DNA of 64,000 bases from Microbacterium immunditiarum (lineage in GTDB: Bacteria; Actinomycetota; Actinomycetes; Actinomycetales; Microbacteriaceae). Shown piece after piece: positions 41,597 to 61,163 of this stretch. Numbering within the stretch: position 1 is the first letter of the stretch; each line of letters opens with the position of its first letter. Made by a program: the position numbers and the translations under genes. The stretch is taken from NCBI RefSeq assembly GCF_013409785.1, contig NZ_JACCBV010000001.1, positions 744,001 to 808,000 on the forward strand. The letters run 5' to 3'. Below the pieces are notes generated by a model. It was not told where the DNA came from. It did not search any database and saw only the letters and a program-made list of their open reading frames with translations.

Positions 41597-41602
41597 TACG
41601 AT
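41597..41602 (+). promoter_or_regulatory. -10 element of AAA ATPase gene
   Basis: TACGAT with AAGGGA at 41617-41622 and ATG at 41631. The in-frame ATG at 41601 overlaps this element, so it is unlikely to be used. Confidence 0.4.
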
Positions 41603-41630
41603 GCGACCTTCCGACGAAGGGAACCGACGG

Positions 41631-43950: not shown

Positions 43951-46900
43951 GTGAAAGCGTCGTCGTGGCTTCGCGCGCGCCCGCGCACCCTCGCGTCCGC
44001 GGGGATCGTCACGGCGGGCGCGGTGGCGATCAGCACGATGGCGTTCCTCTACGAGGGATTCCCGACGACCGAGGTCGACCTGCACGACGGGGGAGTGTGG
44101 GTCACGAAACAGTCGAGCCTGCTCGTCGGCCACTTCAACCACGAGTCGCGCGTGCTCGACTCCGGGTTGCGCACGGTCAGCGACGAGTACGACATCCTGC
44201 AGTCCGGCGACAACGTGCTCGTCGTCGACAAGGCGGGCTCCTCCGTGACGGCGATCGACCCCGCGATGGTGGTTCTCGGCGACAACGCGCAGGTGCCGGG
44301 CGGCGCCGACGTCGCGCTCGGCGGCTCGACCCTCGCGATCCTCGACCCGAGCGCCGGCTCGCTGTGGGTCCTGCCTGCGAAGGCGGTCGCGAGCTTCGAG
44401 GTCGCGGGCGCCGAGCCGTCGGCCGAGCTCGGCGAGGGCGCCGACGTCGCGGTCGGCCTCGACGGCACGGTCTACGCCGTCGCGCCCGCGACGGGCGAGG
44501 TCGTCACGATCCGCATGGGGGCCGACGGTGATCCGGCCGAGCCCGAGCGCGCGACGATCGACGGGCTCGGCGAGGACGCGGCCGCCTCGATCACGGTCGT
44601 CGGCGATATTCCGGTCGTGCTCGACAACGAGAGCCACACGATCTGGAGCACGCGCGGCCTGCGCGCCGAGCTCGGCGCGGGGGCGGCATCCGTGCTTCAG
44701 GCCCCGTCCGAGCCCAACGACGCTGTCATGGTCGCGGCGCCCGGAGCCCTGCTGCGGGTTCCGCTCGACGGCTCCGAGATCACCGAGACCAAGGCCGAGG
44801 GCGACGGGGCGCCGTCCGAGCCGGTGTACCTCGAAGGCTGCGCGTACGGCGTGTGGTCGGGGTCTGCCGCGTTCGTGCGCGACTGCGTCGGCGACGCCGA
44901 CGACCAGTCGACGACGGTGCCGGGGGCCTCGCCGGATGCCGCGCTCAGGTTCCGTGTGAACCGTGACGTCATCGTGCTCAACGACGTCATCGGCGGCGCC
45001 GCGTGGATGGCCAGCGAAGACCTGCAGAAGGTCGACAACTGGGAGGACATCACTCCGCCCGAGGGCGAGACCGAGGAGAACGACGACGAGACGACCGACG
45101 AGACGGTCGAGACGACTCTCCCCGAGCGGTCGGCGATCAACACGCCGCCCGTCGCGGTGGACGACGAGTTCGGCGTCCGTCCCGGTCGCACGACGATGCT
45201 CCCGGTGCTCGACAACGACTCCGACGCCGACGGCGACGTGCTCACCGTCACGATTCCCGACGACGGGCCGTCGTTCGGAGAGGTGCAGTCGATCAACAGC
45301 GGTTCGGGCCTGCAGATCGCCGTGCCGGAGGACGCGACCGGCACGACGACGTTCCAGTACGAGGCCGACGACGGTCGCACCGGACGGGCGCGCGCGAACG
45401 TGCAGCTCACCGTGCACGACTGGAGCATCAACGGCGCGCCGAAGCAGAACCGCATCACGGCGATCGCGGTCGAGTCCGGCGGGGTCGTGTCCTACAACGT
45501 GCTGCCCGACTGGATCGACCCCGACGGCGACGACGTGTTCCTGAGATCGGTCACTCCGGCGGAGGGCGATGAGGTCGACTTCACGGCCGACGGCCGGATC
45601 ACGTATCGCGCGCTCGGGCCGACGCAGGGTCGCAAGGAGGTGGTCATCTCCGTGTCGGACGGGTCCGAGGTCACGGAGGGCGTCGTGCGCTTCGACGTGC
45701 GCCCGCCCGGCTCGACGGTTCCCGTCGCGAACGCCGACCACGTCGTCGTGCGTGCCGGCAAGTCGGTCACGGTCTCGCCGCTCGCGAACGACACGAACCC
45801 GAGCCGCGAGCCGCTGCGCCTCACGCGCGTCGACGAGACGGCGGGGGCGTCGCTGTCTCCCGACTACGCCAACGGGCGGTTCGCGTTCTCCTCGAAGCAG
45901 CCCGGCGTGTACTACGTGCAGTACCTCGTGTCGGCCGGGTCGCTCTCGGCACCCGGCGTCGTGCGCGTCGACGTCCTGGAGGACTCCGACACGGACCTGC
46001 CTCCCGTCGCGGTGCGCGACGTCGCGCTGCTGCCGAGTGGCCGCGAGGTGCTCGTCGACGTGCTCGCGAACGACTCCGACCCCGCAGGCGGCATCCTCGT
46101 CGTACAGTCGGTGACCGTCGAGCCGTCGAGCGGCATCTCGGTGTCGGTGCTCGGGCACGAGACGCTCCGCATCACCGACCAGGGCGCGCTCGCCGAGCAG
46201 GTCACGGTCAAGTACACGATCTCCAACGGCAAGCACAGCGCCGACGGAGAGGTCGTCGTCATCCCGATCCCCGCGCCGTCGAAGCTGCGGCCCCCCGTCG
46301 CGAACGACGACCGCGTGGTCGTGCGCGCGGGCGACGTCGTCACGATCCCCGTGCTCGACAACGACTACCACCCGAACGACGACACGATCCACGTCGCTCC
46401 GGAGCTCGTCGAGCCGCTGCCCGCACCCGAGGACGGCGAGATCTTCGTCACGCAGGACACGGTGCGCTTCCGCGCGAGCGATGAGCCCGGCACCGTGTAC
46501 GCGACGTACGAGGTCGTCGACAGCACGGGTCAGAAGGACGCCGGGTACCTCACGATCCAGGTGCTCCCGGTGAGCCCCGAGACGAACCAGGCGCCGCGGC
46601 CCGAGGAGCTCACGGCGCGCGTCGTCGGCGGCGCGACGGTGCGCATCGCGATCCCGCTCGACGGCATCGACCCCGACGGCGACTCCGTCGACCTCCTGGG
46701 CATCGCGTCCGCGCCCGAGAAGGGCCTCATCTCGGCGATCGGCCCGGACTGGCTGGAGTACCAGGCGGTCGGCGACTCGGTCGGCGTCGACGAGTTCTCC
46801 TACCGCGTGCGCGACCGGCTCGGCGCCCAGGCGACGGCCACGATCCGCGTCGGCATCGCTCCCGCGGGTTCGGTCAACCAGGCGCCCTACGCCGTGAAGG

Positions 46901-49900
46901 ACGCGATCGTCATGCGCCCCGGCCGGTCGGTGGCCGTGCCCGTGCTCGAGAACGACTCCGACCCCGATGGCGATCAGATCACGCTCGTGCGCAACGGCGT
47001 CGAGACGGCCGACGTCCCGGGCCTGGCGGCAGAGGTCCTCGGCGATCGCGTCGTGGTCACGTCCCCCGGACGCGAGGTCGTCACGTCGCTGCAGTACCGC
47101 ATCCGCGACGTGCGGGGCGCCGAGGCGATCGGCGTTCTTCAGATCACGGTCTCCGACGACGTGCCGCTCATGAAGCCGATCGCCCGCGACGACCGCATCG
47201 TCCCGCAGGATGTGGAGGACGCATCCGTCGATCTCGAGGTCCTCGCGAACGACGAGGATCCCGACGGCGTCGTCGCCGACCTCAAGGTCACGGCGGAGGG
47301 CACCGGGGTGCGCGTACTGCCGGACGGCCGCCTGCGCATCGAGATCGGCGACGAGGAGCGGCTCGTCCAGTACCGCATCACCGACCGCGACGGCCTCGAG
47401 GCGACCGCGTTCGTGCGCGTGCCGTCGCTGACCTCGCTGCCGCCGACGCTCGCGACGACCGAGGGCGTCGAGGTGAAGAGCGGCGAGACGATCGAGATCC
47501 CGCTCGCCGACCACGTGCGCACATCGCGCGGCACGCGAGCGGTGATCACCGAGGCGGCGAAGGTCTCCGCGGTGCACGGCGACGGCTCGGGGCTCGTCAA
47601 GGACCAGACGACCCTCGTCTACACCTCCGAGCAGGGCTACTTCGGTCAGGACGCGATCACGTTCGAGGTCACCGACGGAACCGGGCCCGACGACCCGGAG
47701 GGGCTCAAGGCCACCCTCACGCTTCCGGTCACGGTGCTGCCGCCCGACAACCAGCAGCCGGAGTTCCTCGACGGGCAACTCGACGTCGCGCCGGGCGAGG
47801 ACGCGAGCCGGCTCGACCTGCGCGCCCTCACGACCGACCCCGACCCCGGCGACGTCGCGCGCGCCTCCTACACCCTCGTGGGCGGTGCGCCGAGCGGGCT
47901 GAGCGCGTCGATCTCGGACGGCACGCTGAACGTGAGTGCGGATGCCGCGACACCCAAGGGCACGCGGGCGACGCTCCGCGTGCGCATCGCCGACGGCGAG
48001 ACGGAACCGATCGAGGGGAACGTCGTCGTGACCGTGACGGCCTCGACGCGCACGCTCCCGACCGCGAACGACGATGTGGTCGACGAGGCGCACCAGGGCA
48101 CGACCGTCACGGTGCCCGTGCTGGCGAACGACTTCAACCCGTTCCCCGACCGGCCGCTCAAGGTCGTCGCCGCGGCGGTCGAGACGGGGAACGGCACCGC
48201 CGAGGTGAGCGGCGACCAGGTCGCGGTCAGCCCGAACAGCACCTTCGTCGGCACGATGGTCGTGCGCTACCGCATCCAGGACGCGACGGCCGACGTCGAC
48301 CGCGAGGTCGAGGGCCGCATCCTCGTGACGGTGCAGGGTCGTCCCGAAGCTCCGGGAACGCCGACGGTGTCGAGCGTGCAGGACCGCACGGTCGTGCTGT
48401 CGTGGACGCCGCCCGCCGACAACGGCGCCGCGATCACCACCTACGTCGTGTCGTCGACGCGGGGCGACTACTCGAAGGACTGCACCGCGACGACGTGCAC
48501 GCTCGATGGGCTCACGAACAACGTCGAGTACAACTTCACCGTCGTGGCGGTCAACCGCGTCGGCCCATCCGACCCGTCGCCCGCGTCCGAGACGGCGCGC
48601 CCCGACGCCCGCCCCGACACTCCGCAGGCGCCCTCGTTCACGGGCTTCGGCGACCGGAGTCTCTCGATCGCGTGGATCACGCCGACGACGCCCGGCTCGC
48701 CCGTGGAGTCGTTCACACTCGAGATCTCGCCCGCCCCGCCCTCGGGCGTCGCCCAGAAGACCGGCGTGACGGGCAACACGTACGTGTGGGAGGGCCTCGA
48801 GAACGGCACCGCGTACCAGGTCCGCGTCCAGGCGCACAACCGTGCGCCGGAGCCGTCGAGCTGGAGCGCGTGGTCGGCGACCGAGATCCCCGCGCGTGCC
48901 CCCGAGCCCGTCGCGGCTCCGGCGACGCAGCGCCTCGAGCCGGTCGGCGCGCAGGCGCAGCTCCAGGTGGCGTGGGCCGCGCCCGCCAACAACGGAGCCC
49001 CCATCGCCGGCTACGAGCTGCAGGTGATGCGCGGCGGGTCGGTCGTGAGCACGATCCCGGGCATTCCCGCCACTCAGACGAGCCAGGCCGTCGTCGTCGA
49101 CACGTCGACCACGGACTACACGTTCCGGCTCCGCGCGAGCAACAAGGCGGGCTGGGGCGAGTGGGGAGCGCAATCCGCACCCCGGCGCGCGTTCACCGCA
49201 CCCGGCGCGCCGACGATCACGAGCGTCACCCCCGGTGACCGCCGCCTCACCGTGACCTACACGCCCGGCGCGGGCAACGGCGCCACCGCGAGCGAGCTGC
49301 GCTACGAGTACTCGCTCAACGGCGGCGGCTGGCAGGCGTTCAACGGCTCGACGATCACCGGCCTCAACAACGGCACGACGTACCAGGTGCGCCTGCGCGC
49401 GTACACGTCGATGGACGGCGTGCGCTATGACGGAGCAGCCTCGGCCTCGTCGGCGGGCCAGATCCCCTACGGCCCCGTCAACACACCCGGTGCGACCGCG
49501 AACGCGAGCGGTACGAGCATCACTTACGGCTGGAGCGCGCCGGCGCCCAACGGCCGCCCGATCCAGCGCGTGCAGATCAACATCAACGGCAACGGGTGGG
49601 AGAACGTCTCACTCAATGGAAGCCGCACGGTCAACCACGGCTACGACTTCCGGGGCACGATCCAGGTGCGCGCGTACGACAGCGAAGGCCAGGTGTCCGC
49701 CGTGCGGTCGGCGTCCGACACGACGGCGCAGCAGCCGCAGGCGACGGCGCAGGCGGGCAAGGGCAGCCGCACGAACAGCCCGACCTGTACGAGCTCGCAG
49801 TGCGCGTACCTCACACTCACCACCTCGAATTTCCCGGCGGGCAGCTACCGCGTCTACTGCAACGCGACCGGCCCCTACGGAGGCACCCCGTTCGCGGGCG

Positions 49901-50022
49901 GCGCCTGGCGCGACATCCCGGCCAACGGCACGATCCAGCTCGGCTGCTACTTCGGCGACAGCGGCCAGCAGGCGTGGGTGACGATCGAGGGCTGGGGCGA
50001 CTCCAGACGCACGACCTGGTAG
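43951..50022 (+). CDS. Giant membrane-anchored cadherin-like/FN3 surface protein
   Basis: 2023 residues from a GTG. One hydrophobic segment (about 14-34) without a clear cleavage site suggests a signal anchor with the bulk outside. Residues ~40-380 look like a beta-propeller (repeated V-x-D-x-A-G/S-x-x-V-x-x-I-D). From residue 397 there are about eleven tandem cadherin-like repeats of type P-P-V-A-x-D-D-x-x-V-x-x-G with L-x-N-D-x-D-P-D-G-D, a calcium-binding style, ending near 1465. About five FN3 domains follow to ~1925, then a Cys-rich cap (four Cys in ~1943-2010). There is no LPXTG. An acidic Thr/Glu-rich linker lies near 370-390. It starts the operon and is probably the structure the downstream genes build or control. 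Confidence 0.85.
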   Translation: MKASSWLRARPRTLASAGIVTAGAVAISTMAFLYEGFPTTEVDLHDGGVWVTKQSSLLVGHFNHESRVLDSGLRTVSDEYDILQSGDNVLVVDKAGSSVTAIDPAMVVLGDNAQVPGGADVALGGSTLAILDPSAGSLWVLPAKAVASFEVAGAEPSAELGEGADVAVGLDGTVYAVAPATGEVVTIRMGADGDPAEPERATIDGLGEDAAASITVVGDIPVVLDNESHTIWSTRGLRAELGAGAASVLQAPSEPNDAVMVAAPGALLRVPLDGSEITETKAEGDGAPSEPVYLEGCAYGVWSGSAAFVRDCVGDADDQSTTVPGASPDAALRFRVNRDVIVLNDVIGGAAWMASEDLQKVDNWEDITPPEGETEENDDETTDETVETTLPERSAINTPPVAVDDEFGVRPGRTTMLPVLDNDSDADGDVLTVTIPDDGPSFGEVQSINSGSGLQIAVPEDATGTTTFQYEADDGRTGRARANVQLTVHDWSINGAPKQNRITAIAVESGGVVSYNVLPDWIDPDGDDVFLRSVTPAEGDEVDFTADGRITYRALGPTQGRKEVVISVSDGSEVTEGVVRFDVRPPGSTVPVANADHVVVRAGKSVTVSPLANDTNPSREPLRLTRVDETAGASLSPDYANGRFAFSSKQPGVYYVQYLVSAGSLSAPGVVRVDVLEDSDTDLPPVAVRDVALLPSGREVLVDVLANDSDPAGGILVVQSVTVEPSSGISVSVLGHETLRITDQGALAEQVTVKYTISNGKHSADGEVVVIPIPAPSKLRPPVANDDRVVVRAGDVVTIPVLDNDYHPNDDTIHVAPELVEPLPAPEDGEIFVTQDTVRFRASDEPGTVYATYEVVDSTGQKDAGYLTIQVLPVSPETNQAPRPEELTARVVGGATVRIAIPLDGIDPDGDSVDLLGIASAPEKGLISAIGPDWLEYQAVGDSVGVDEFSYRVRDRLGAQATATIRVGIAPAGSVNQAPYAVKDAIVMRPGRSVAVPVLENDSDPDGDQITLVRNGVETADVPGLAAEVLGDRVVVTSPGREVVTSLQYRIRDVRGAEAIGVLQITVSDDVPLMKPIARDDRIVPQDVEDASVDLEVLANDEDPDGVVADLKVTAEGTGVRVLPDGRLRIEIGDEERLVQYRITDRDGLEATAFVRVPSLTSLPPTLATTEGVEVKSGETIEIPLADHVRTSRGTRAVITEAAKVSAVHGDGSGLVKDQTTLVYTSEQGYFGQDAITFEVTDGTGPDDPEGLKATLTLPVTVLPPDNQQPEFLDGQLDVAPGEDASRLDLRALTTDPDPGDVARASYTLVGGAPSGLSASISDGTLNVSADAATPKGTRATLRVRIADGETEPIEGNVVVTVTASTRTLPTANDDVVDEAHQGTTVTVPVLANDFNPFPDRPLKVVAAAVETGNGTAEVSGDQVAVSPNSTFVGTMVVRYRIQDATADVDREVEGRILVTVQGRPEAPGTPTVSSVQDRTVVLSWTPPADNGAAITTYVVSSTRGDYSKDCTATTCTLDGLTNNVEYNFTVVAVNRVGPSDPSPASETARPDARPDTPQAPSFTGFGDRSLSIAWITPTTPGSPVESFTLEISPAPPSGVAQKTGVTGNTYVWEGLENGTAYQVRVQAHNRAPEPSSWSAWSATEIPARAPEPVAAPATQRLEPVGAQAQLQVAWAAPANNGAPIAGYELQVMRGGSVVSTIPGIPATQTSQAVVVDTSTTDYTFRLRASNKAGWGEWGAQSAPRRAFTAPGAPTITSVTPGDRRLTVTYTPGAGNGATASELRYEYSLNGGGWQAFNGSTITGLNNGTTYQVRLRAYTSMDGVRYDGAASASSAGQIPYGPVNTPGATANASGTSITYGWSAPAPNGRPIQRVQININGNGWENVSLNGSRTVNHGYDFRGTIQVRAYDSEGQVSAVRSASDTTAQQPQATAQAGKGSRTNSPTCTSSQCAYLTLTTSNFPAGSYRVYCNATGPYGGTPFAGGAWRDIPANGTIQLGCYFGDSGQQAWVTIEGWGDSRRTTW

Positions 50023-50075
50023 CGCCGGCACCGCATACCGACGAAGACACACACAGCGACACGAGAGAGATCACC

Positions 50076-51047
50076 ATGACGATGACACCGGAGCAGGCCT
50101 CCTGGTTCGAGGGGACGTTCACGCGCCTCGTCGACAACGTCGACCGCGCCCTCATGGGCAAGCGCGAGGTCGTCGGCCTCGTGCTCGCGGCGATGCTCGC
50201 CGAGGGACACGTGCTGCTCGAGGACGCCCCCGGCACGGGCAAGACCAGCCTCGCGAAAGCACTCGCCGCGACCGTGCAGGGCACGAGCTCGCGCATCCAG
50301 TTCACGCCCGACCTGCTGCCGTCGGATGTCACGGGCGTCACCATCTACGACCAGCAGGCGCACCGCTTCGAGTTCCACCGCGGCCCGGTCTTCGCGTCGA
50401 TCGTGCTCGCCGACGAGATCAACCGCGCATCGCCGAAGACGCAGTCGGCGCTCCTGGAGGTCATGGAGGAGTCGCGCGTCACCGTCGACGGCGTGCCGCA
50501 CGAGGTCGGCCGTCCGTTCCTCGTCATCGCGACGCAGAACCCCATCGAGCAGGCCGGCACGTACAAGCTCCCCGAGGCGCAGCTCGACCGGTTCCTCGTG
50601 AAGACGAGCATCGGCTACCCCGACCTCGCCGTCGCCGAGCGCATCCTCGCGGGCGCCGCCGACCGCAACCCGTCGGCCCACCTCCCCGCGATCATCACGA
50701 CGGGAGCCGTCGCCGACATGGCCGATCTGGCCGCGACCGTGCACGTCGAGCCCGCGGTGCTGCGCTACACGGCGCAGCTGGCCGAGGCGACGCGTGCGGA
50801 TGCCTCGGTGAACCTCGGCGTCTCGGTGCGCGGCTCGCTCGCGCTCATCCGCATCGCGAAGGTGTGGGCCGCCGCGCAGGGCCGCCACTTCGTGACGCCC
50901 GACGACATCAAGGCGCTCGTGCGCCCGGTGTGGACGCACCGCATCGTGCTCGACCCCGAGGCGGAATTCTCCGGCACGACCGCCGAGGCCGTCATCGCCC
51001 GCACGCTCGAGAGCGTCGCCGCACCGCAGGCGAGGGCCGCCGCCTGA
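50076..51047 (+). CDS. MoxR-family AAA ATPase
   Basis: 323 residues from the ATG at 50076, with GAGAGAGA 6 nt upstream. Walker A A-P-G-T-G-K-T-S (51-58), Walker B with D-E-I-N (113-116) and the insert Q-N-P-I-E-Q-A-G-T-Y-K-L-P-E-A-Q-L-D-R-F are typical of MoxR chaperones. MoxR proteins fold or activate complexes, often with a DUF58 or VWA partner; the next gene is DUF58, so they likely act together. It follows the giant protein by 53 bp, and its stop overlaps the DUF58 start by 1 bp. Confidence 0.95.
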   Translation: MTMTPEQASWFEGTFTRLVDNVDRALMGKREVVGLVLAAMLAEGHVLLEDAPGTGKTSLAKALAATVQGTSSRIQFTPDLLPSDVTGVTIYDQQAHRFEFHRGPVFASIVLADEINRASPKTQSALLEVMEESRVTVDGVPHEVGRPFLVIATQNPIEQAGTYKLPEAQLDRFLVKTSIGYPDLAVAERILAGAADRNPSAHLPAIITTGAVADMADLAATVHVEPAVLRYTAQLAEATRADASVNLGVSVRGSLALIRIAKVWAAAQGRHFVTPDDIKALVRPVWTHRIVLDPEAEFSGTTAEAVIARTLESVAAPQARAAA

Positions 51048-52366
51048 TGACCTCCGCGACCCTCGCGTCGGCCGACCCCACGCAGAACGAGTCCTCCCGC
51101 AGCGCGTCAGCGGTGCGCGAGGGCGGCGTGGGCGCGCCTGCGGGGGAGCGCAGGCAACGGTGGGCGGATGCCGCGGCTCCCGCGGCCGCGGCTGCGCTGC
51201 GCCATGTGCGGGCGGTCGCGGGCGTCATCCGCCCGATCGCGTGGGTGCTCATCGTCGCGGCCATCGCCCTGTGGATCGCGGGCAGCGTCCTCGGCTGGTG
51301 GGAGCTCACCGTGGCGGCGGTCGTCATCACGTCCGCGCTCGCGCTGTGCGCGCTGTTCCTCATCGGACGCACCGCCTACGACGTCTCGCTCGACCTCAAC
51401 CGCACGCACGTCATCGTCGGCGAGCGCGCGGTCGGTGCGCTCACGCTCTCGAACCCCGGCGGGCGGGCGATCCTGCCATCCCGCGTCGTGCTCCCCGTCG
51501 GCGCGGGCCGAGGCGTGTTCGACGTGGGGCGCCTCGCTGCGGGCGAGTCGATCGAGGAGCTCTTCGCGATCCCGACGTCGCGTCGCACGGTGCTGCCGGT
51601 CGGCCCGGTGAGCGTCGTGCGCGGCGATCCGCTCGGCCTGTTCGAACGCGTCCACCGTCGCGACGAGCCGGTCGACCTGTACGTGCACCCGCGCACCGTG
51701 CGCTTCGACGGGCAGTCGCTCGGTTTCGTGCGCGACCTCGAGGGGCTCACCGCGCGCGACCTGTCACGCGACGACGTGTCGTTCCACGCGCTGCGCGAGT
51801 ACCAGCCGGGCGACGACCTGCGGCATGTGCACTGGCGCTCGTCTGCCCGTACCGGGGACGTCATGGTGCGTCAGTACGAGGAGACGCGACGGTCCCACTT
51901 CGTCATCGGCCTGTCGTGCAACCCGTCCGACTATCGCGACACCGACGAGTTCGAGCTCGCGATCTCGGCCGCGGGCTCCCTCGGGCTCCGTGCCGTGCGT
52001 GACTCGCGCCGCGTCGACCTGCGGGTCCAGGGTCGCTCGGTGCCCGCCACGACGGGCAAGCGCCTGCTCGACGCGCTGTCGGCCCTCGAGCCGTCGAAGC
52101 CGCGCGACGGCGACATCCTCGACCTCACGACTGCGCTCGTGTCGACGGTCGAGCTCGCGAGCATCGTCGTGCTCGTGTGCGGCTCGGGCGTGAACCCCGC
52201 GAAGCTGCGTGCCGCGTGCGGCCGGGTTCCGTTCGGGGCGCGCGTGCTCGCGATCGTCGCCCACACGGGAGCAACTCCGTCGCTGCGCCGCGTCGGCGAG
52301 GCCGACGTCGTCACGATCGGCGAGTTGGAGCAGCTCCCGGCCGCGCTCCGGAAAGTGCTCGCATGA
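51047..52366 (+). CDS. DUF58-domain membrane protein
   Basis: 439 residues. Two membrane segments lie near 63-83 and 86-106, after a Gln/Ala/Arg-rich N-terminus. The DUF58 signature E-Y-Q-P-G-D-D-L-R-H-V-H-W-R-S-S-A-R-T-G is at residues 251-270. DUF58 proteins are VWA-like partners of MoxR ATPases. Its start overlaps the moxR stop, and its stop overlaps the next start by 4 bp (ATGA), so translation is coupled. It probably docks MoxR at the membrane. Confidence 0.93.
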   Translation: MTSATLASADPTQNESSRSASAVREGGVGAPAGERRQRWADAAAPAAAAALRHVRAVAGVIRPIAWVLIVAAIALWIAGSVLGWWELTVAAVVITSALALCALFLIGRTAYDVSLDLNRTHVIVGERAVGALTLSNPGGRAILPSRVVLPVGAGRGVFDVGRLAAGESIEELFAIPTSRRTVLPVGPVSVVRGDPLGLFERVHRRDEPVDLYVHPRTVRFDGQSLGFVRDLEGLTARDLSRDDVSFHALREYQPGDDLRHVHWRSSARTGDVMVRQYEETRRSHFVIGLSCNPSDYRDTDEFELAISAAGSLGLRAVRDSRRVDLRVQGRSVPATTGKRLLDALSALEPSKPRDGDILDLTTALVSTVELASIVVLVCGSGVNPAKLRAACGRVPFGARVLAIVAHTGATPSLRRVGEADVVTIGELEQLPAALRKVLA

Positions 52367-54861
52367 GCGCGCCGAGTGGAGCGACTCCCGTCGTCGAGCG
52401 GGCCAAGCGCGAGGAGGCCCGCGCCGAGGCCGCGCGGCGGCGCGAGCAGCGCGCCCGCCGCACGGCCGAGCGTCGCGCGACCGCGACGACGACCACGCGC
52501 CGCTGGGTGCTCGACCTCACCGCCGCCGCGCTGCTCATCGCGGTGCCGATCGCCGGGTTCTGGCCCACCTTCGGCGGACCGGCGTACCTTCCCGCGGCCG
52601 TGGGTGGAGCGCTCGTGGGCCTCGGCATCGCCGCGCTCGCCGCGCGCCTGCGCTGGGGCATGCTCGAGCAGGCGGGCCTCGTCGTGCTCGCATACTTCCT
52701 GCTCGGTCCCGCGCTCGCCGTCCCGCACACGACGATCGCCGGGGTGATCCCGACGCTCGAGTCGTGGATCCAGCTCGGCACGGGGATCGTCACGTCGTGG
52801 AAGCAGCTGCTCACGACCGTCGCGCCGGTCCCGGCATCCGAGCAGTTCCTCATCGTCCCGTTCATGCTGTCGCTCGTCGCCGCGACGCTCACAGCCGGCT
52901 TCGGACTCCGCCTGCGCCACGCCGCGTGGGCGCTGCTCCCCGCCGCCGCGTACCTCGCCACGCAGATCGCGCTCGGCACGTCGCAGCCTGCGATCCCGGT
53001 CGTCGAGGGCATCGTCTTCGCGGTCGTCGCCGTCGCGTGGCTCGCGCTCCGCGAGGCGTGGGCGCCGTCGGCCGCCGCGGTGTCGCTCGGGAGCGCGGGC
53101 GGGGGTGCGGATGCCGCGAAGAGCGGTTCGGCCCGTCGCGCGCTGCTCGGGTCGGGCATGATCGCGATCGCGGTCGTCGCGGGCGTCGTCACGAGCGGGT
53201 TCGCCGCACCGGCCGCCCCGCGGTACGTGCTTCGCGACATCGTCATCCCGCCGTTCGACGTCCGGGAGTACCCGAGCCCGCTGCAGTCCTTCCGCTCGCT
53301 CGTGCGCGACCACGCCGACGGCACGCTCTTCACCGTGACGGGCCTGCCGCAGGGGGCGCGCGTGCGCCTGGCCACGATGGACGCCTACTCGGGCACGGTC
53401 TACAACGTCTCGGATGAGGGCGCCGGCTCGTCGAGCGCGTTCGTGCCGATGCGCGACACGATGTCGCCGACCGTCGAGGGCGTCGAGGCGTCGGTGCGCG
53501 TCGAGATCGGCGAGCTGGACGGCGTGTGGATGCCCGAGGTCGGATCCATGGCATCCGTGCGGTTCGACGGCGACCGCGCGGACGACCTGCGCCGCTCGGC
53601 CCACTACAACGCCGCGACCCAAACGGCTGTCGTGACGGCCCGCCTGCAGGAGGGCGACGCGTACGACCTCGACGTCGTCGTGCCGTCGGTGCCGAGCGAC
53701 AGGGCGCTCGAGGGCGTGAGCTTCGCTCCCGTGCGGCTTCCGAAGCAGAAGGGCGTCCCGAAGGAGTTCGCCGAGATCGCATCGGATGCCGCGGCCGACG
53801 CGTCATCGCCGATCGAGCAGGTCCGCGCGCTGCAGGAGACGCTGTCGACCGAGGGCTTCTTCAGCCACGGGCTCGAGGGCCAGCCGCTCTCCCGCGCCGG
53901 GCACGGCGCTGAGCGGATCACGACGCTGCTCGGCTCGGAGCAGATGGTCGGCGACGACGAGCAGTACGCCGTCGCGATGGCGCTGCTCGCGCGCGAGCTC
54001 GGCATCCCGGCACGCGTCGTCCTCGGGTTCTACCCCGACGAGGACCGCGCCGACGAGCCCGTGTTCGAGGCGAACGGCGAGAGCGTGCACGCGTGGGTCG
54101 AGGTCGCGTTCGACGGCGCCGGGTGGGTGCCGTTCGACCCGACGCCGCCCGAGGACCAGGTGCCGAGCGACCAGCAGACCAAGCCGCGCGCCGACCCGAA
54201 GCCGCAGGTGCTCCAGCCCCCGCCGCCGCAGCAGGAGCCCGTCGACCTGCCCCCGTCGATCCCCGACGAGCGCGAGCCTGAGGATGGCGACGACAGCATC
54301 GGCGCCGTGATCTGGGCGATCGTGTCGATCACGGCCGCGAGCCTCGGCGTGCTCGCGCTGCTCGCGTCGCCGTTCATCGTGATCGGCGTTCTCAAGTCGG
54401 CGCGCCGCCGCAAGCGCCGCAACGCCGAGCGCGCGGCCGACCGCATCAGCGGCGGCTGGGACGAGCTCGTCGATCGCGCCGTCGACTACGGGACTCCGGT
54501 CCGCGTCGGCGCCACGCGCCAGGAGGACGCGCAGACCGTCCGGACCGCGCTCGAGGAGCCGGCCGTGACGACTCTCGCCGTCCGGGCCGACGCGCAGGTG
54601 TTCGGCCCGTCCGAGCCCACGCAGCAGGACGTCGACGAGTTCTGGAGTCAGGTCGAGGAGATCGTGGGCACGATGGGCAGCCGTGCGACGTTCTGGCGTC
54701 GTGTGCGTGCGCGCCTGTCGCTGCGCTCGCTGCTGGCCGGCACGCGCTTCGCCCTCGCCCTGCCGTTCGCCTCCGCGCGCTCGTCCGTTCCCCCGTCGTC
54801 GCGCCGGTCCCGCACCGCCGCCGAACCCCGCACGCCTTCCGAACCCGCGGAGACCGCATGA
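52363..54861 (+). CDS. Transglutaminase-like membrane protein with degenerate active site
   Basis: 832 residues. An N-terminal coiled-coil-like Glu/Arg-rich stretch (about 10-40) precedes five or six membrane segments (about 48-68, 75-95, 100-120, 165-185, 190-225, 262-282), as in TgpA proteins. The transglutaminase-core domain lies outside, ending before a last membrane segment (~643-673). The active Cys of G-D-C-E-Q-Y-A is Asp532 (G-D-D-E-Q-Y-A), while His576 (S-V-H-A-W-V-E) and Asp592 (P-F-D-P-T-P-P) remain. So it may have lost protein cross-linking activity and serve as a scaffold. TgpA-like genes usually follow moxR-DUF58. Confidence 0.88.
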   Translation: MSAPSGATPVVERAKREEARAEAARRREQRARRTAERRATATTTTRRWVLDLTAAALLIAVPIAGFWPTFGGPAYLPAAVGGALVGLGIAALAARLRWGMLEQAGLVVLAYFLLGPALAVPHTTIAGVIPTLESWIQLGTGIVTSWKQLLTTVAPVPASEQFLIVPFMLSLVAATLTAGFGLRLRHAAWALLPAAAYLATQIALGTSQPAIPVVEGIVFAVVAVAWLALREAWAPSAAAVSLGSAGGGADAAKSGSARRALLGSGMIAIAVVAGVVTSGFAAPAAPRYVLRDIVIPPFDVREYPSPLQSFRSLVRDHADGTLFTVTGLPQGARVRLATMDAYSGTVYNVSDEGAGSSSAFVPMRDTMSPTVEGVEASVRVEIGELDGVWMPEVGSMASVRFDGDRADDLRRSAHYNAATQTAVVTARLQEGDAYDLDVVVPSVPSDRALEGVSFAPVRLPKQKGVPKEFAEIASDAAADASSPIEQVRALQETLSTEGFFSHGLEGQPLSRAGHGAERITTLLGSEQMVGDDEQYAVAMALLARELGIPARVVLGFYPDEDRADEPVFEANGESVHAWVEVAFDGAGWVPFDPTPPEDQVPSDQQTKPRADPKPQVLQPPPPQQEPVDLPPSIPDEREPEDGDDSIGAVIWAIVSITAASLGVLALLASPFIVIGVLKSARRRKRRNAERAADRISGGWDELVDRAVDYGTPVRVGATRQEDAQTVRTALEEPAVTTLAVRADAQVFGPSEPTQQDVDEFWSQVEEIVGTMGSRATFWRRVRARLSLRSLLAGTRFALALPFASARSSVPPSSRRSRTAAEPRTPSEPAETA

Positions 54862-56099
54862 CCAACCCGCCCCCCGCAGCCACCGCCGCAGTGCCCGCCA
54901 CGATCGGGCGCCGCGTCGGCGCCTATGTGATCGACGTCGCGATCGCGTGCGGCATCGCGCTCGTGTTCATCGGCGTGTGCGCCGCGATCATCTTCGCGGT
55001 CGGTCCCGCCTGGACGCAGAGCTCGCTCGCGCTGGCGATCCTCCTCATGTACACCGGCCTCGGGTTCGCCTCGCTCGCGTGGGCGCTCGTGTACACGGCG
55101 ATGCAGGGCGTGCGCGGATCGATCGGCCAGCGCATGGTCGGAATCAGGCTGGCGGATGCCGCAACCGGCGGTCCCATCGGCTTCTGGCGCGCGCTCCTGC
55201 GCAACATCGTCTTCGGCCTCGCCGGCTCGATCGTCGTCGGGTACTTCTCGCCGCTCTTCGACTCGAGCGGCCGGCGCCAGGGGTGGCACGACAAGGTCGC
55301 ATCCGCCCTTGTCGTCGACCGCACCGCCGCCGAGGCCCCCGCCGCGGCGCCGGCGCCCGCACCTGCCGACCGGGTCCCCCACCCGCACCTTCCGCAGCCC
55401 GCCGGCGCTCTGGCCACGCCCGCGGGCGGATTCACCGGCGCCGGCCGGCCCCCCGCCTTCGGCGCGCCGGGAACCCCGTCGGTCTCGGCCCCGACCGGAC
55501 CGGTCCTCACTGGTGCCGCAGCGGCGCCCGCGACGGCTCCGGCCTACGCGGGAGCGGCCATTCCGCCGCGCCCGCCGCTGCCGTCGGCGCAGGCCGCGCC
55601 CGCGGTCGTCGTGCCGTCGACCGGCATGATCGCGCATGTCCCCGGGATCACCGGGGACCGTCCGGCGTGGGGTGGGACATCCGTCTCGTCCGTCGTCGAC
55701 GACGACCTCGACTCGACACTCGTCGCCCCGTCGCGGTCGGTCGCCGCGGCCGGGCGTGCTGCGCTCGACCCCGACGCCCGGGCGATCGCGGTGCTCACGT
55801 GGGACGACGGCGGCCGCATGGCCGTGTACGGGCGCACGCTGTACGGCCGCAACCCCGCCGCCGAAGAGGGCGCGGTGAGCGTCGCCGTGCGCGACGAGAC
55901 GCTGTCGCTGTCGAAGACGCACTTCGAGATCGGATGCGACGACTCGGGCGCGTGGATCGTGGACCGCCACTCGACGAACGGCACGATCCTCGTGCGCGAC
56001 GGCATGCGGCATCCGCTTCTTCCCGGTCGGCAGACGAGCGTGCGCCCCGGCGACCGTCTCGAGTTCGGCGACCGCAGCGCGACGGTGAGCGGGCCATGA
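54858..56099 (+). CDS. RDD-domain membrane protein with C-terminal FHA domain
   Basis: 413 residues. An RDD domain (about residues 15-155) has I-G-R-R-V-G-A-Y-V-I-D and three or four hydrophobic segments. A long Pro/Ala linker (~155-280) holds D-S-T-L-V at T287. The FHA domain (~325-413) keeps its phospho-threonine contacts in L-S-K-T-H (S-x-x-H) and T-N-G-T. It binds phosphothreonine peptides, likely in the kinase or its partners. The start overlaps the previous gene by 4 bp, and its stop overlaps the phosphatase start by 4 bp. Confidence 0.9.
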   Translation: MTNPPPAATAAVPATIGRRVGAYVIDVAIACGIALVFIGVCAAIIFAVGPAWTQSSLALAILLMYTGLGFASLAWALVYTAMQGVRGSIGQRMVGIRLADAATGGPIGFWRALLRNIVFGLAGSIVVGYFSPLFDSSGRRQGWHDKVASALVVDRTAAEAPAAAPAPAPADRVPHPHLPQPAGALATPAGGFTGAGRPPAFGAPGTPSVSAPTGPVLTGAAAAPATAPAYAGAAIPPRPPLPSAQAAPAVVVPSTGMIAHVPGITGDRPAWGGTSVSSVVDDDLDSTLVAPSRSVAAAGRAALDPDARAIAVLTWDDGGRMAVYGRTLYGRNPAAEEGAVSVAVRDETLSLSKTHFEIGCDDSGAWIVDRHSTNGTILVRDGMRHPLLPGRQTSVRPGDRLEFGDRSATVSGP

Positions 56100-56935
56100 C
56101 GAGCGGGACACCGGTGACGGTCGTGCACGGGTCGGCGACCGACCCGGGCCTGCGCCGCCGTGTCAACGAGGACTCGTTCATCGCGTCGTCGCCGCTGTTC
56201 CTCGTGGCGGACGGCATGGGCGGGCACTCGGCCGGCGAGATCGCGAGCGCGGCCGTCGTCGACGAGTTCTCGAAGCTCGCCGGGCGCGCAAGCCTCACGG
56301 TCGACGAGGTGCATGCGACGTTCGCGGCCGCCCGCCGTCGCGTCGAGGCGCTGCCGCCGGGCAGCGGCGCGGGCGCGGGCACGACGCTCACCGGCGTCGT
56401 CATCGCCGACATCGACGGCGAGGGCTACTGGCTCACGATCAACCTCGGCGACTCGCGCACGTACCGATTGAGCGAGGGCGAGTTCGAGCAGATCAGCGTC
56501 GACCACTCGATCGTGCAGGAGCTCATCGACAGCGGCGAGCTCGACGCCGCTGCCGCGACGCGCGACGCCCGCCGAAACGTCATCACGCGCGCGATCGGCG
56601 CGGGCAGCGAGTCGGAGCCGGACTACTGGCTCATCCCGGCGGAGGAGGGCGATCGCATCCTCGTGTGCTCCGACGGGCTGTCGGGCGAGCTCGACAGCGA
56701 CGCGATCCGCGCGGTGCTCGTCGCGGAGCGCGACCCGCAGGCCGCCGCGACGCGGCTCGTGCACGAGGCGATGCTGCGCGGCGGCCGTGACAACATCACG
56801 GCGCTCGTCGTCGACGCCGTCGGTGTGCGCTCGCGCGCGCGCCGCGCAGGACACGACACCCTGCCCGGAGAGCCCGCCGACGACCACGTCGACGGCGACA
56901 CGCTTCCGCGCGCGGTCGTAGGAGGAGGCTTCTGA
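56096..56935 (+). CDS. PP2C-family Ser/Thr phosphatase
   Basis: 279 residues. The metal-binding residues are present: N-E-D-S (D26), A-D-G-M-G-G (D39), S-D-G-L (D193) and G-G-R-D-N (D232). It is a metal-dependent phosphatase that removes phosphate from Ser/Thr, and by position reverses the action of the kinase two genes later. The C-terminal tail carries two D-T-L-P motifs (T255 and T269) that could be phosphorylation or FHA-docking sites. No membrane segment, so cytoplasmic. Confidence 0.94.
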   Translation: MTSGTPVTVVHGSATDPGLRRRVNEDSFIASSPLFLVADGMGGHSAGEIASAAVVDEFSKLAGRASLTVDEVHATFAAARRRVEALPPGSGAGAGTTLTGVVIADIDGEGYWLTINLGDSRTYRLSEGEFEQISVDHSIVQELIDSGELDAAAATRDARRNVITRAIGAGSESEPDYWLIPAEEGDRILVCSDGLSGELDSDAIRAVLVAERDPQAAATRLVHEAMLRGGRDNITALVVDAVGVRSRARRAGHDTLPGEPADDHVDGDTLPRAVVGGGF

Positions 56936-58152
56936 TGTCGGTGCACTATCGACCCGGCGGGATCCCGGTCGCCGTCACCCGCCGCGGGGCGGTCGCGCTG
57001 TCGGCCGACACCCCGCCCGTCCTCGCGGTGCGCATCTGGACCGAGGTCGCCGAGGGCCGCGGGTTCGCCGCCGTGCTCGAGACCCTGACGGGCGCGTTCG
57101 GCACATCGCTCGCGGCGCTCCCGCCGTTCGCGGTCGCGCTCGCCGAGGGTCCTTCGGTGCGCGTCGCGGTGCGCGGCTCGCTCGTTCTCGATGTCGAGAC
57201 CGGCTCCGGTCCAGAGACGATCTCGGGTGCCGGGGTCACGACGTGGACCGAGCGCGTGCTCGAGGGCGTCACCAGCGTGACCGTCCGCGCCTCGGCGACC
57301 GTTGAGCGCGAGGGCGATCCCGGACTCCCGATCGCCGACGGAGTCGTGCTCGCGTCGACGGTGGAGTGGGTGCCGGATGTCGCCGAGCCGGTGGCGCGTC
57401 CGAGCGACCCCGCTCCCGTCGCCGAACCGGCGGCGGATGCCGGCGAGACCGTTCGCGCCGAGGCCCCGCCGACCCCCGTCATCGCGGCCGTCCCGCTCGA
57501 CGGCTCGATGGTCGAGACGCTGCTGCCTTCCGAGTCGACGATCGTCCCTGCATCCGCCGATTCTGCAGGCGACGCCGAAGCGACCACCGGATACGACGAG
57601 CTGTGGGGTGCGACCGTCGCCCGCTCGACCCTCGACGCGGCCGTCCACGACGAGGGCGAGAGCCCCGGCGAAGCCGCATCCGCTCCGGCCGGCCACGCGA
57701 TGGCGGGCGACCACGACGGCGAGACGATCTCGGTCGCGCAGGCCCGCGCGATGCGCACCGCAGGGATCGTGGACTCCGTGCCGCCGCCGCTCGCCGGCCC
57801 GCGGCCGAACGCGCCGGGCCGCATCCGGCTTTCCACAGGGCAGACCCTGCTGCTCGACCGCACGGTCGTCATCGGACGACGGCCTCGCGCGACGCGGGTG
57901 ACCGGCACCGACCTGCCGCACCTCGTCGCGGTCGACAGCCCGCAGCAGGACATCTCGCGCAGCCACATCGAGCTGCGGGTCGAGGGCGACAGCATCGTCG
58001 CGACCGACCTGCGCACGACGAACGGCACGACGCTCGTCCGCCAGGGCGGCGACCCCGTGCGGCTGCATCCGGGTGAGCCGACCGTCGTCGTCCCCGGCGA
58101 CGTCATCGACCTCGGCGACGGCGTCACGGTCACGGTCGAGGGGATCTCGTGA
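56935..58152 (+). CDS. FHA-domain protein
   Basis: 405 residues, start overlapping the phosphatase stop by 1 bp (TGATG). The N-terminal ~150 residues are beta-rich and not recognised; a low-complexity Ala/Pro/Asp/Glu linker follows (~155-280). The C-terminal FHA domain (~295-405) has intact contacts: G-R-R-P, I-S-R-S-H and T-N-G-T. E-T-L-L-P at T195 in the linker resembles motifs in the kinase and phosphatase. It is probably the phosphothreonine reader of the kinase. Confidence 0.9.
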   Translation: MSVHYRPGGIPVAVTRRGAVALSADTPPVLAVRIWTEVAEGRGFAAVLETLTGAFGTSLAALPPFAVALAEGPSVRVAVRGSLVLDVETGSGPETISGAGVTTWTERVLEGVTSVTVRASATVEREGDPGLPIADGVVLASTVEWVPDVAEPVARPSDPAPVAEPAADAGETVRAEAPPTPVIAAVPLDGSMVETLLPSESTIVPASADSAGDAEATTGYDELWGATVARSTLDAAVHDEGESPGEAASAPAGHAMAGDHDGETISVAQARAMRTAGIVDSVPPPLAGPRPNAPGRIRLSTGQTLLLDRTVVIGRRPRATRVTGTDLPHLVAVDSPQQDISRSHIELRVEGDSIVATDLRTTNGTTLVRQGGDPVRLHPGEPTVVVPGDVIDLGDGVTVTVEGIS

Positions 58153-59807
58153 ACGCGAAGCGCACGCCGCAGACACCTCCCGACCTGCCCGGCTTCACAT
58201 ACGTCGACGTGCTCGGGTCGGGTGGCTTCGCCGACGTCTACCTGTACGAGCAGCAGCTGCCCAAGCGTCGCGTCGCCGTCAAGGTGCTCCTCACCGAGCG
58301 CATGTCGAGCGGGTCGGTCGCCGAGTTCACCGCCGAGGCGAACGTCATGGCGATGCTGTCGACGCATCCGGCGATCGTCACGATCTACCAGGCGGGGGTC
58401 GCCGGCGACGGGCGGCCGTACCTCGTCATGGAGTACTGCCCCAAGCCGAACCTCCAGGTGCGCTACCGTCGCGAGCCGTTCTCGATCGCCGAGTCGCTTC
58501 GAGTGGGCGTGCAGGTCGCGGCCGCCGTCGAGACGGCGCACCGCGCGGGCGTCCTCCACCGCGACATCAAGCCCGCGAACATCCTCGTCACGGAATACAA
58601 CCGCCCGGCGCTGACCGACTTCGGCATCGCGTCGACGACGAGCGCGGCCGCCGAGTCGGCGGGACTGTCGATCCCGTGGTCTCCGCCCGAGTCGTTCGCC
58701 GACTCGCCGCGCAGCGAGGTGCGCTCCGACGTGTACGCGCTCGGCGCGACCGTCTATACGCTGCTCGCGGGCCGTTCGCCGTTCGAACAGGCGGGGCGCC
58801 GCAACACCGCGGCCGAGCTCATCGAGCGGATCGAGACCGCGCCGCTGCCGCCGCTCGACCGCGCCGACGTGCCCGCGTCGCTGCACGCGGTGCTCGCGCG
58901 CGCGATGGCGAAGTCGGTGACCGACCGCTATGAGAATGCGCTCGCCTTCGCCCGCGCGCTGCAGAAGGTGCAGATCGAGCTGTCGCACTCGGTGACGCCG
59001 ATCGACATCCTCGACGACGGTGCGACCGACGAGATCGTCGAGGACGAGGACGACGGCCTCACGCGCGTGCGCGGCGTCGTCAGCATCCACCCCGAGACGA
59101 ATCCCGCGGCCGGCCTCACGCGTCCGTCTGCCACCACGGCGCCGTCGCGGCGCGAGCCGTACGTCGAGCCGGATGTCGAGGCGCCCGACGACACCGTGCT
59201 GCGCGCCGACGCGACGGCTGCGGTCGGCGACACGGTCCTGCGGCCGGCATCCGGTCCCGCCGCGCCGCCCGTGCCGTCCTCCATCCCGGGTGTCGCGACC
59301 CCCGCGCAGGGTCGGTTCGACGCGATCGACGAGACGGTCCTGCGCGCGCCGACCACCGCGCCCGTCCCACGGCCCGAGCCGCCCGCGCCGTCGCGCAAGG
59401 GCCTGGTCATCGGCCTCGTCGCCGCCGCAGCCGTCGTGGTGGTCGCGGTCGTGCTGGCGGTGTCGCTTCCGGCGCTGCTGGGCGGAACGCCGGATGCCGC
59501 GCCTACCCCACCCGCGACCTCGGCGCCCAAGGACCCGGTCTCGGCCGTCGTGGCACCGCCCGCCGACCTCGCGGGTGCCCCGGCGGCGAACGGCGTCGAG
59601 TTCACGTGGACGAACCCCGACCCGCAGGAGGGCGACAAGTACCTCGTTGGGGTCGTGACGCGCGCCGACCAGGACCCCGAGCTCGAGGCGGTGACCGAGT
59701 CGTCCGTGACCGTGCCCGCCGATGCGTCCGGCACGACGTGCATCGAGGTGATGGTCGTGCGCACGAACGGGCAGTCGTCCGATCCGGCGAAGGGATGCGT
59801 GCCGTGA
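58149..59807 (+). CDS. Membrane Ser/Thr protein kinase
   Basis: 552 residues from a GTG that overlaps the FHA stop by 4 bp. Kinase motifs: G-loop G-S-G-G-F-A (23-28), Lys45 (V-A-V-K), H-R-D-I-K-P-A-N with D139, and D-F-G with D157. The activation segment ends L-S-I-P-W-S-P-P-E rather than G-T-x-x-Y-M-x-P-E. The juxtamembrane region (~285-417) has three copies of D/G-D/E-T-V-L-R (T349, T362, T396). A membrane segment (418-440) precedes an FN3-like outer domain of about 110 residues with two Cys. It would phosphorylate the FHA partners. Confidence 0.94.
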   Translation: MNAKRTPQTPPDLPGFTYVDVLGSGGFADVYLYEQQLPKRRVAVKVLLTERMSSGSVAEFTAEANVMAMLSTHPAIVTIYQAGVAGDGRPYLVMEYCPKPNLQVRYRREPFSIAESLRVGVQVAAAVETAHRAGVLHRDIKPANILVTEYNRPALTDFGIASTTSAAAESAGLSIPWSPPESFADSPRSEVRSDVYALGATVYTLLAGRSPFEQAGRRNTAAELIERIETAPLPPLDRADVPASLHAVLARAMAKSVTDRYENALAFARALQKVQIELSHSVTPIDILDDGATDEIVEDEDDGLTRVRGVVSIHPETNPAAGLTRPSATTAPSRREPYVEPDVEAPDDTVLRADATAAVGDTVLRPASGPAAPPVPSSIPGVATPAQGRFDAIDETVLRAPTTAPVPRPEPPAPSRKGLVIGLVAAAAVVVVAVVLAVSLPALLGGTPDAAPTPPATSAPKDPVSAVVAPPADLAGAPAANGVEFTWTNPDPQEGDKYLVGVVTRADQDPELEAVTESSVTVPADASGTTCIEVMVVRTNGQSSDPAKGCVP

Positions 59808-60556
59808 GCGGTGTGGAGCCCCGCGTGGTCGAATCGCGGCCCGACCGCCTGACCGTCGAGTTCGCCGGCGAGATCTTCGACGTCGAGCCGTCGCAGACCT
59901 TCACGGTGGGGCGCGAGGGCGATCTCGCGATCGATGACAACCTGTTCCTGCACCGCCAGTTCCTCACGATCGAGCGGGTCGGCGGGCTGTGGATCCTCTC
60001 CAACGTCGGCAGCCGGCTGTCGGCGACCGTGACCGACTCGGGCAGTCGCGTGCAGGCGTGGCTCGCACCGGGGGCGCGCCTTCCGCTCGTGTTCGCCGCG
60101 ACGACCGTGATCTTCAGTGCGGGCCCGACGACCTACGAGCTGACGATCCACGCGGCCGAGCCCACCTTCCGCGAGACGCAGACGATCGACGACGAGTCCG
60201 ACGGCCTCTCGACGATCGGCGAGGTGCCCCTCACGGCGAGCCAGAAGCTCATGATCCTCGCGCTCGCCGAACCTATGCTGCGGCGCGAGGGGACAGGCAT
60301 GAGCGAGCTGCCGACGTCGGCGCAGGCCGCCCAGCGACTGGGCTGGACGCTCACGCGCTTCAACCGCAAGCTCGACAACGTCTGCGACAAGCTCGACCGC
60401 ATCGGCGTGCCCGGGCTCCGCGGCGGCGTCCGCTCCTTCGCGACGAACCGCCGCGTGCGACTCGTCGAGCATGCGATCGCCGCGCGTCTCGTGACGCGCG
60501 AGGACCTCCCGCTCCTCGACGAGGAGCGCGACGCGAACGGCGACGAGGACGCCTGA
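59804..60556 (+). CDS. Degenerate FHA protein with helical C-terminus
   Basis: 250 residues from a GTG overlapping the kinase stop by 4 bp; an ATG at 59795 would add three residues. FHA-like residues ~15-110 contain V-G-R-E-G-D and a normal beta pattern, but the conserved Ser/His of S-R-x-H is replaced by L-H-R-Q-F and the N-G motif by N-V-G, so phosphothreonine binding is doubtful. Residues ~142-208 look like a helix-turn-helix or four-helix segment (Q-A-A-Q-R-L-G-W-T-L-T-R-F-N-R-K-L). It could be an adaptor or a DNA-binding output. It is the last gene of the operon. Confidence 0.8.
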   Translation: MSGVEPRVVESRPDRLTVEFAGEIFDVEPSQTFTVGREGDLAIDDNLFLHRQFLTIERVGGLWILSNVGSRLSATVTDSGSRVQAWLAPGARLPLVFAATTVIFSAGPTTYELTIHAAEPTFRETQTIDDESDGLSTIGEVPLTASQKLMILALAEPMLRREGTGMSELPTSAQAAQRLGWTLTRFNRKLDNVCDKLDRIGVPGLRGGVRSFATNRRVRLVEHAIAARLVTREDLPLLDEERDANGDEDA

Positions 60557-61096: not shown

Positions 61097-61163
61097 ATGG
61101 CCGCCTTCCCTGACGTCCATTGTGCCCTCTCGCGGCAAGTCGTCCGAAAGATAAGGCCCCCGG

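Follow-up and report, generated by a model that had tools for sequence, protein, structure and literature searches.

A nine-gene envelope block in Microbacterium immunditiarum resembles a rearranged bifidobacterial PFNA operon whose transglutaminase-like protein lacks the catalytic cysteine

The window analysed here is a stretch of 64,000 nucleotides (nt) of Microbacterium immunditiarum DNA (positions 744001-808000 of the 3.9-Mb genome). It contains a block of nine genes that, judged by sequence, is a rearranged form of the PFNA operon of Bifidobacterium, and a new finding is that the operon's 'transglutaminase' has no catalytic Cys in any readable copy examined. The genes are abbreviated as G (giant), M (MoxR), D (DUF58), T (TgpA-like), RF (RDD-FHA), P (PP2C), F (FHA), K (kinase) and H (gene 9), and the block is laid out as follows.

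43951..50022, + strand: G, giant surface protein (PFNA fn3 homologue), 2023 amino acids (aa), start GTG; in order, an N-terminal transmembrane (TM) helix, a beta-propeller, immunoglobulin (Ig)-like (Big_9) repeats, FN3 domains and a C-terminal domain (Pfam, AlphaFold2, Foldseek, homologues named Bifidobacterium)
50076..51047, + strand: M, MoxR AAA+ ATPase (PFNA aaa-atp; AAA_3, 3.3e-62)
51047..52366, + strand: D, DUF58 protein (PF01882, 9.2e-16)
52363..54861, + strand: T, TgpA-like membrane protein with a predicted pseudo-transglutaminase domain (PFNA tgm; PF01841, Transglut_core, 1.1e-19; PF11992, TgpA_N; alignment to PDB 6g49; column counts)
53950..53970, + strand: GDDEQYA pseudo-active-site motif in T, its second D at the catalytic-Cys position of canonical TgpA
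54858..56099, + strand: RF, RDD membrane domain and FHA domain (Pfam; FHA core residues intact)
56096..56935, + strand: P, PP2C-type phosphatase (Pfam PP2C_2)
56935..58152, + strand: F, protein with an FHA domain at its C-terminal end (Pfam FHA; core residues)
58149..59807, + strand: K, Ser/Thr kinase (PFNA pkb2) with a TM helix and a predicted FN3-like ectodomain, start GTG (Pfam Pkinase)
GTG 59804 (or in-frame ATG 59795) to 60556, + strand: H, degenerate FHA domain and a helical C-terminal domain that may be helix-turn-helix (HTH)-like

A spacer of 53 nt (50023-50075) separates G from M and each subsequent junction is a 1- or 4-nt overlap, so the coordinates bear out the original prediction, which had described nine plus-strand genes with a 53-nt gap after the giant and overlaps thereafter. 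Its domain assignments for the first eight genes agree with Pfam, which returned Big_9 (10 stretches), Cadherin_4/5 and fn3 (3 stretches) for the giant and, for genes 2 to 8, AAA_3; DUF58; Transglut_core with TgpA_N; RDD with FHA; PP2C_2; FHA; and Pkinase. No Pfam family matched gene 9, and its description as a degenerate FHA protein stands on the FHA fold and the replaced binding residues. The giant's predicted N-terminal beta-propeller, the missing catalytic Cys of T, the FN3-like kinase ectodomain and the HTH-like tail of H go beyond that prediction.

The block had also been considered a possibly undescribed system. This part fails, as the gene set has already been published as the PFNA operon of Bifidobacterium (PMC8430577, PMC10688814). 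According to these reports, the operon reads pkb2-fn3-aaa-atp-duf58-tgm, to which some species add prpC, a hypothetical gene and fha, and its FN3 protein comprises 1994 aa (PMC8430577, PMC10688814, PMC12607495). In B. longum GT15, the PFNA operon is reported to be co-transcribed and MoxR to be a Pkb2 substrate (PMC8430577). FN3 and the operon are claimed to be exclusive to bifidobacteria by PMC10688814, and no description of a PFNA-type operon outside Bifidobacterium was found in the open-licence literature searched.

All five PFNA core genes are present in the window, all on the plus strand. The order fn3-aaa-atp-duf58-tgm is kept and the kinase stands eighth instead of first, so the block would be a permuted relative of the PFNA operon rather than a canonical member. 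The closest named giants to the window giant are from Microbacterium. Giants of family f4 match proteins named B. cuniculi, B. gallicum, B. saguini and others, which identifies f4 as the family of Bifidobacterium, and the N-terminal part of the window giant is 24-30% identical to those of five f4 loci. Furthermore, an alignment of 23 giant N-terminal regions (A1) spans the entire propeller with 11 invariant columns, and homology of the window giant to bifidobacterial FN3 is thereby found. The two operons share homologous giant, kinase, MoxR, DUF58 and T proteins, with T devoid of Cys in both; the window differs in its circularly permuted order and in the additional RDD-FHA gene and FHA-HTH gene H. 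The five f4 loci read K-G-M-D-T (two with P), and H was not detected in them by profiles.

A second, divergent block lies in the same genome at about 3.61-3.62 Mb (L046, C1:3607000-3626900), with the order K-G-M-D-T-F, that is, the pkb2-first order of PFNA. Nine such second copies of Microbacteriaceae, here called type B, form one clade in each of five gene trees (supports 0.99-1.0). In the M, D and T trees this clade has no other member, and in the G and K trees it also takes in L149, a tenth B copy truncated at its contig end. Such a clade in all five gene trees indicates that the block descends as a unit.

To describe its distribution, 100 loci from 16 families and 39 genera were classified by iterated profiles; they comprise the window and 99 hand-picked neighbourhoods, with short matches, contig-edge matches and most extra copies left out. 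G-M-D-T is contiguous in 90 of them. The kinase lies on the giant's strand in 73 (54 before the giant, 19 after) and on the opposite strand in 9; in the other 18 it is outside the fetched stretch, several of those stretches stopping short of its usual place. By gene content, the giant is co-conserved with MoxR-DUF58-T and with the kinase. This favours the original prediction, and the link that it drew from both modules to the giant is right in kind. Two gene orders recur, [G-M-D-T-RF][P-F-K-H] as in the window and [P-F-K-H][G-M-D-T-RF], each a circular permutation of the other. RF, P, F or H is missing from many loci, variously, and H was seen in 29 of the 100 stretches. Among the ten non-contiguous loci, no M was found in L058, L083 and L115; L099 has only a MoxR fragment at its upstream edge; M-D-T precede tandem giants in L125, and T precedes tandem giants at the stretch edge in L060; T and RF are swapped by midpoint in L095; L149 meets its contig end; and L059 and L085 are lone giants. 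Tandem giants within one block were observed in L047, L048, L049, L050, L060, L086, L088 and L125 (families f1, f6 and f18). In L055 (10816-17340, f4) giant and MoxR share one open frame of 2175 aa with Pfam AAA_3 at 1899-2029; this frame is topologically odd and may reflect a sequencing error or a lost stop.

In a single-sequence search, giant residues 1-390 found a match in 91 of the 198 genomes searched in the order, covering 34 of 72 genera; 107 had no giant match, in part because the giant is divergent, as in family f10. With the A1 profile, matches came from 69 of 394 genomes when the class was searched and from 19 of 198 when the phylum was, many of the weaker matches being partial and in shorter proteins. 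Beyond the class, the block with a full-length giant was seen in L144, L145 and L146, three genomes belonging to two families. A profile of the dead transglutaminase region of T picks up canonical TgpA as well and therefore matched 177 of the order's 198 genomes. For the high-scoring rows among the matches listed, compared by eye, G was found for all but f10 and genome G168. Four fetched f10 loci of apparently G-less genomes (L275-L278) carry a divergent G, with seven further f10 genomes unfetched, and G168 is a 77-percent-complete genome with T on a 4.2-kb contig (L280). When named genomes were scanned with H, the best 80 of at least 524 loci, taken with 10-kb flanks, came from Ruania, Occultella, Georgenia, Brachybacterium, Agromyces, Cryobacterium, Paenarthrobacter, Herbiconiux, Serinibacter, Salinibacterium, Microbacterium and others. 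K directly precedes H in 66 of these 80, and G is in reach in 37, the flanks often ending before G. Since G-M-D-T is contiguous in 90 of the 100 loci, which span 16 families and 39 genera, and since Ruania, Cryobacterium, Agromyces, Paenarthrobacter and other named genera carry the block, we conclude from sequence that the operon is widespread among actinobacteria and that 'unique to bifidobacteria' is wrong. The gene set also recurs en bloc in other families and in one or more other classes, which argues that its arrangement is more than chance.

The protein T has the fold and the TgpA_N domain of Pseudomonas aeruginosa TgpA and of canonical actinobacterial TgpA but differs from them at the active site. 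In the alignment to PDB 6g49 (TgpA), VGDDEQYA of the window stands opposite SGFCAHYA, and the triad positions read D-H-D instead of Cys-His-Asp. Among 97 T frames, the Cys column holds D in 49, E in 15, A in 14, G in 7, S in 7 and Q in 2, with 3 cut by the stretch end, so that Cys occurs in 0 of 94; the catalytic His is retained in 26 rows of the alignment. The control, a non-random set of the 30 best-scoring loci from a search with the window genome's third, Cys-bearing TgpA, retains Cys in 29 of 29 readable rows (one row was cut before Cys) and His in 30 of 30. Bifidobacterium relatives of T read GDSEQYA, devoid of Cys, in all 120 listed of 491, and His, too, is absent from the five f4 loci. 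The 54 T frames of the named set give E 19, D 15, Q 6, A 1 and gap 13, with no Cys. The transglutaminase domain of T is therefore, as far as its residues tell, catalytically dead, and an active transglutaminase was set aside on these counts. Nevertheless, the motif G[DN]xEQ[YF]A is strongly conserved (E in 93 and Q in 94 of 94), and the near invariance of E and Q suggests that selection maintains the pocket for another purpose and speaks for binding as the selected role. Inactive transglutaminase-like domains are described elsewhere in menin (a scaffold), EPB42 and Rad4 (PMC10318531). Three of the 120 listed relatives are DUF58-T fusions (P0269, P0271 and P0277); they look alike, may represent one event or a frameshift in overlapping genes, and were given no weight.

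For giant residues 1-390, AlphaFold2 gave a mean pLDDT (predicted local distance difference test score) of 87.4, with propeller strands predicted at about residues 48-353 and propellers as the Foldseek matches. A direct phospho-switch on the giant was considered and rejected. Its cytoplasmic tail is short, mostly basic and devoid of conserved Ser/Thr in the 23-row alignment, so such a switch is unlikely, and phospho-control of the giant itself finds no support in this analysis. MoxR retains Walker A and B across the aligned homologues; it fits AAA_3 (3.3e-62) rather than bpMoxR (3.7e-10) and is thus not of the bpMoxR type. It is common for moxR to be followed by genes encoding a DUF58 protein and a transglutaminase (PMC6803598). 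MoxR also adjoins DUF58 in the mycobacterial moxR1 operon, for which a separate vWA protein, but no giant or T, is named in the available text of PMC12067865; that paper remarks merely on the resemblance of the moxR1 operon to PFNA, and a title in its reference list ties MoxR1 to RipA export.

The phosphorylation proteins appear intact. VAVK, HRD and DFG are conserved in the kinase, as are the PP2C motifs where aligned. Compared with the giant, the kinase ectodomain profile reached a best probability of 94.9 (E 4.4e-8) against FN3 domains, 13.5 or less against Ig domains and 0.2 against the propeller, and the ectodomain is accordingly predicted to be FN3-like; TM helices were taken from a hydropathy scan, and eight kinases with no predicted TM helix were dropped from the ectodomain count. 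FHA domains bind phosphopeptides through the residues GR, SxxH and NG. All three are intact in RF and F. H has the FHA fold, in a structure comparison spanning residues 11-119 only, and keeps GR in 29 of 29 aligned rows, with SxxH and NG replaced by LHR and NVG; these counts cover rows passing a score and coverage filter, which favours intact domains, and include the window twice. Its C-terminal tail is possibly HTH-like, as judged by predicted helices. H differs from EmbR, an FHA transcription factor of M. tuberculosis, in having the FHA domain first and the HTH-like region as its tail, and in the replacement of SxxH and NG in all 29 rows.

We then used gene-tree distances from 74 loci of 15 families to ask which proteins evolve together. 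Partial correlations were 0.70 for G-T, 0.55 for M-D, 0.45 for D-T and 0.42 for M-K, and -0.06 to 0.15 for the remaining pairs. When one family at a time was left out, G-T stayed at 0.62-0.74, M-D at 0.36-0.60, D-T at 0.37-0.55 and M-K at 0.33-0.52, with G-K at -0.20 to 0.00 and G-M at -0.12 to 0.21. The 5-95% ranges of a family bootstrap were 0.54-0.77 (G-T), 0.27-0.70 (D-T), 0.10-0.62 (M-D), 0.15-0.57 (M-K) and 0.17-0.48 (D-K), and those of the other five pairs span zero. With T labels shuffled within families, the observed G-T value was reached in 0 of 300 trials. When T was split, its extracellular and transglutaminase parts correlated with G at 0.64 and 0.66 and with D at 0.17 and 0.15, and its membrane part with D at 0.45 and with G at 0.38, which fits the expected TgpA topology. 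Kinase distances are thus tied to MoxR/DUF58 and not to the giant. These values suggest a chain from the giant through the dead transglutaminase, DUF58 and MoxR to the kinase that is independent of gene order: neither G-T nor M-K are operon neighbours, so adjacency does not explain their correlations.

The reading we favour, at a probability of roughly 0.4, is a phospho-regulated, inside-out trans-envelope machine in which MoxR-DUF58 acts via T on G, gated by the kinase and phosphatase. It draws on the block conservation, the domains, the Cys loss, the intact kinase, phosphatase and ATPase motifs, the ectodomain, the propeller and the distance chain, and on the co-transcription and MoxR phosphorylation reported for B. 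longum; for the physical contacts, the direction of action, the remodelling step and the role of H, we infer the following. The giant fibre would be held by its single N-terminal helix, with the beta-propeller close to the membrane and the Ig and FN3 domains beyond it. The dead extracellular transglutaminase fold of T would serve as a binding adaptor that grips G near the propeller, while inside the cell DUF58 would couple T to the MoxR AAA+ ring, whose use of ATP would remodel the T-G complex for fibre assembly, release or extension. The kinase, with an ectodomain of the same kind as the giant's FN3 domains, could sense the state of the surface layer and phosphorylate MoxR and other partners, and PP2C would undo this. 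The intact FHA proteins, RF in the membrane and F, may recruit phosphorylated partners, and H, with its degenerate FHA domain and HTH-like tail, might relay the state to transcription. Held just as tentatively, the phylum-wide picture is an envelope machine whose dead-transglutaminase extracellular adaptor joins a phosphorylation-gated MoxR-DUF58 motor to a 200-kDa beta-propeller/Ig/FN3 fibre, with the paralogous second copy having lost its outside sensor and the bifidobacterial 'immune communication' operon forming one branch.

Several points weigh against this machine. In DUF58, the Asp/Ser positions resembling a metal ion-dependent adhesion site (MIDAS) are not conserved by column counts, and its role as a motor adaptor is proposed by analogy with MoxR-vWA pairs. 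Three loci (L058, L083 and L115) keep G, D and a dead T with MoxR not found, the block is naturally split in one genome, where some 0.5 Mb lie between the giant (L059) and the remaining eight genes (L279), and H is alone in 9 of the 80 named loci. Type-B kinases have no ectodomain (10 of 10). As for the chain, G-M reaches 0.21 once family f1 is left out, M-K is 0.31 with 73 loci, G-D rises to 0.19 once T is split, and distance correlations can arise when extracellular proteins change their rates together. The kinase end is blurred, its link being shared between M and D: the bootstrap median is 0.28 for D-K and 0.34 for M-K, and the rank-based values are 0.37 and 0.25.

The main rival to the inside-out machine is a sensor that works from outside in, with G or the layer it binds as the receptor, T-DUF58-MoxR carrying the signal inward, and the kinase and H giving a transcriptional response, for example to wall stress. 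The wiring data speak for it as much as for the machine, and an FN3-like kinase ectodomain, an FHA protein with an HTH-like tail and a membrane FHA protein would all suit a sensor; however, an AAA+ motor in the chain suggests work on a target beyond signalling, and the type-B kinases have no ectodomain with which to sense, so we regard it as rather unlikely, though it deserves the most attention among the alternatives. An improbable one is host communication as published, specific to bifidobacteria, with FN3 as a cytokine receptor or adhesin and the kinase sensing host immune signals. Its basis is that FN3 fragments bind TNF-alpha in vitro and that TNF-alpha raises PFNA expression in B. longum, as reported in PMC8430577, PMC10688814 and PMC12607495. 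As a general role it is contradicted by the distribution. The operon occurs in Ruania, Occultella, Cryobacterium, Agromyces, Paenarthrobacter, Georgenia, Serinibacter and others, for the most part free-living genera, and the block with its full-length giant extends beyond the class, so a host role would be only a later use.

We find it very hard to credit an active T, one that would cross-link or process the giant as a transglutaminase or cysteine protease and be activated by MoxR-DUF58. The Transglut_core match (1.1e-19) and the transglutaminase activity reported for P. aeruginosa TgpA (PMC3507681) would fit, but Cys is found in none of the 94 T copies and none of the 120 listed bifidobacterial relatives, and His in 26 rows only. 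Membership of the MoxR-vWA-beta-propeller ternary conflict systems seems equally far-fetched: the block does combine a MoxR that matches bpMoxR with a DUF58 protein and a beta-propeller, yet AAA_3 is by far the better fit, the propeller here sits behind a TM helix on a giant fibre, Pfam found an effector domain in none of the nine proteins, and DUF58 goes unmentioned in the main text of PMC7159879. The MIDAS-like positions of DUF58 are variable, and according to that paper a subset of the vWAs in FtsH and propeller systems lacks the MIDAS residues.

These results contradict two published claims on a probiotic operon: its restriction to bifidobacteria, and the identity of its TGM as a transglutaminase or cysteine protease. 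They move the focus away from host immunity and towards an envelope function general to actinobacteria, which tractable strains would allow one to study, and they provide MoxR-DUF58 modules with a candidate target. The inside-out machine also makes pairwise predictions: G with the T ectodomain, the T membrane part with DUF58, DUF58 with MoxR, and the kinase with MoxR/DUF58.

Further observations concern H and the flanks of the block. In L193, L208 and L234, H occurs with no other operon profile in the fetched stretch, and in L193 it lies two genes after what we take to be a dnaB-like gene. Rfam gave 0 matches at the gathering score, and a simple sigma-70 scan, ill-suited to a high-GC genome, returned 0 promoter-like and 0 terminator-like elements. 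None of the flanking genes is related to the block; they include an AAA ATPase gene upstream (41601-43076) and a malate/lactate dehydrogenase gene downstream (62912-63907). A gene with a Resolvase N-terminal domain (PF00239, 9.4e-6; 60599-61177, minus strand) converges on the operon end.

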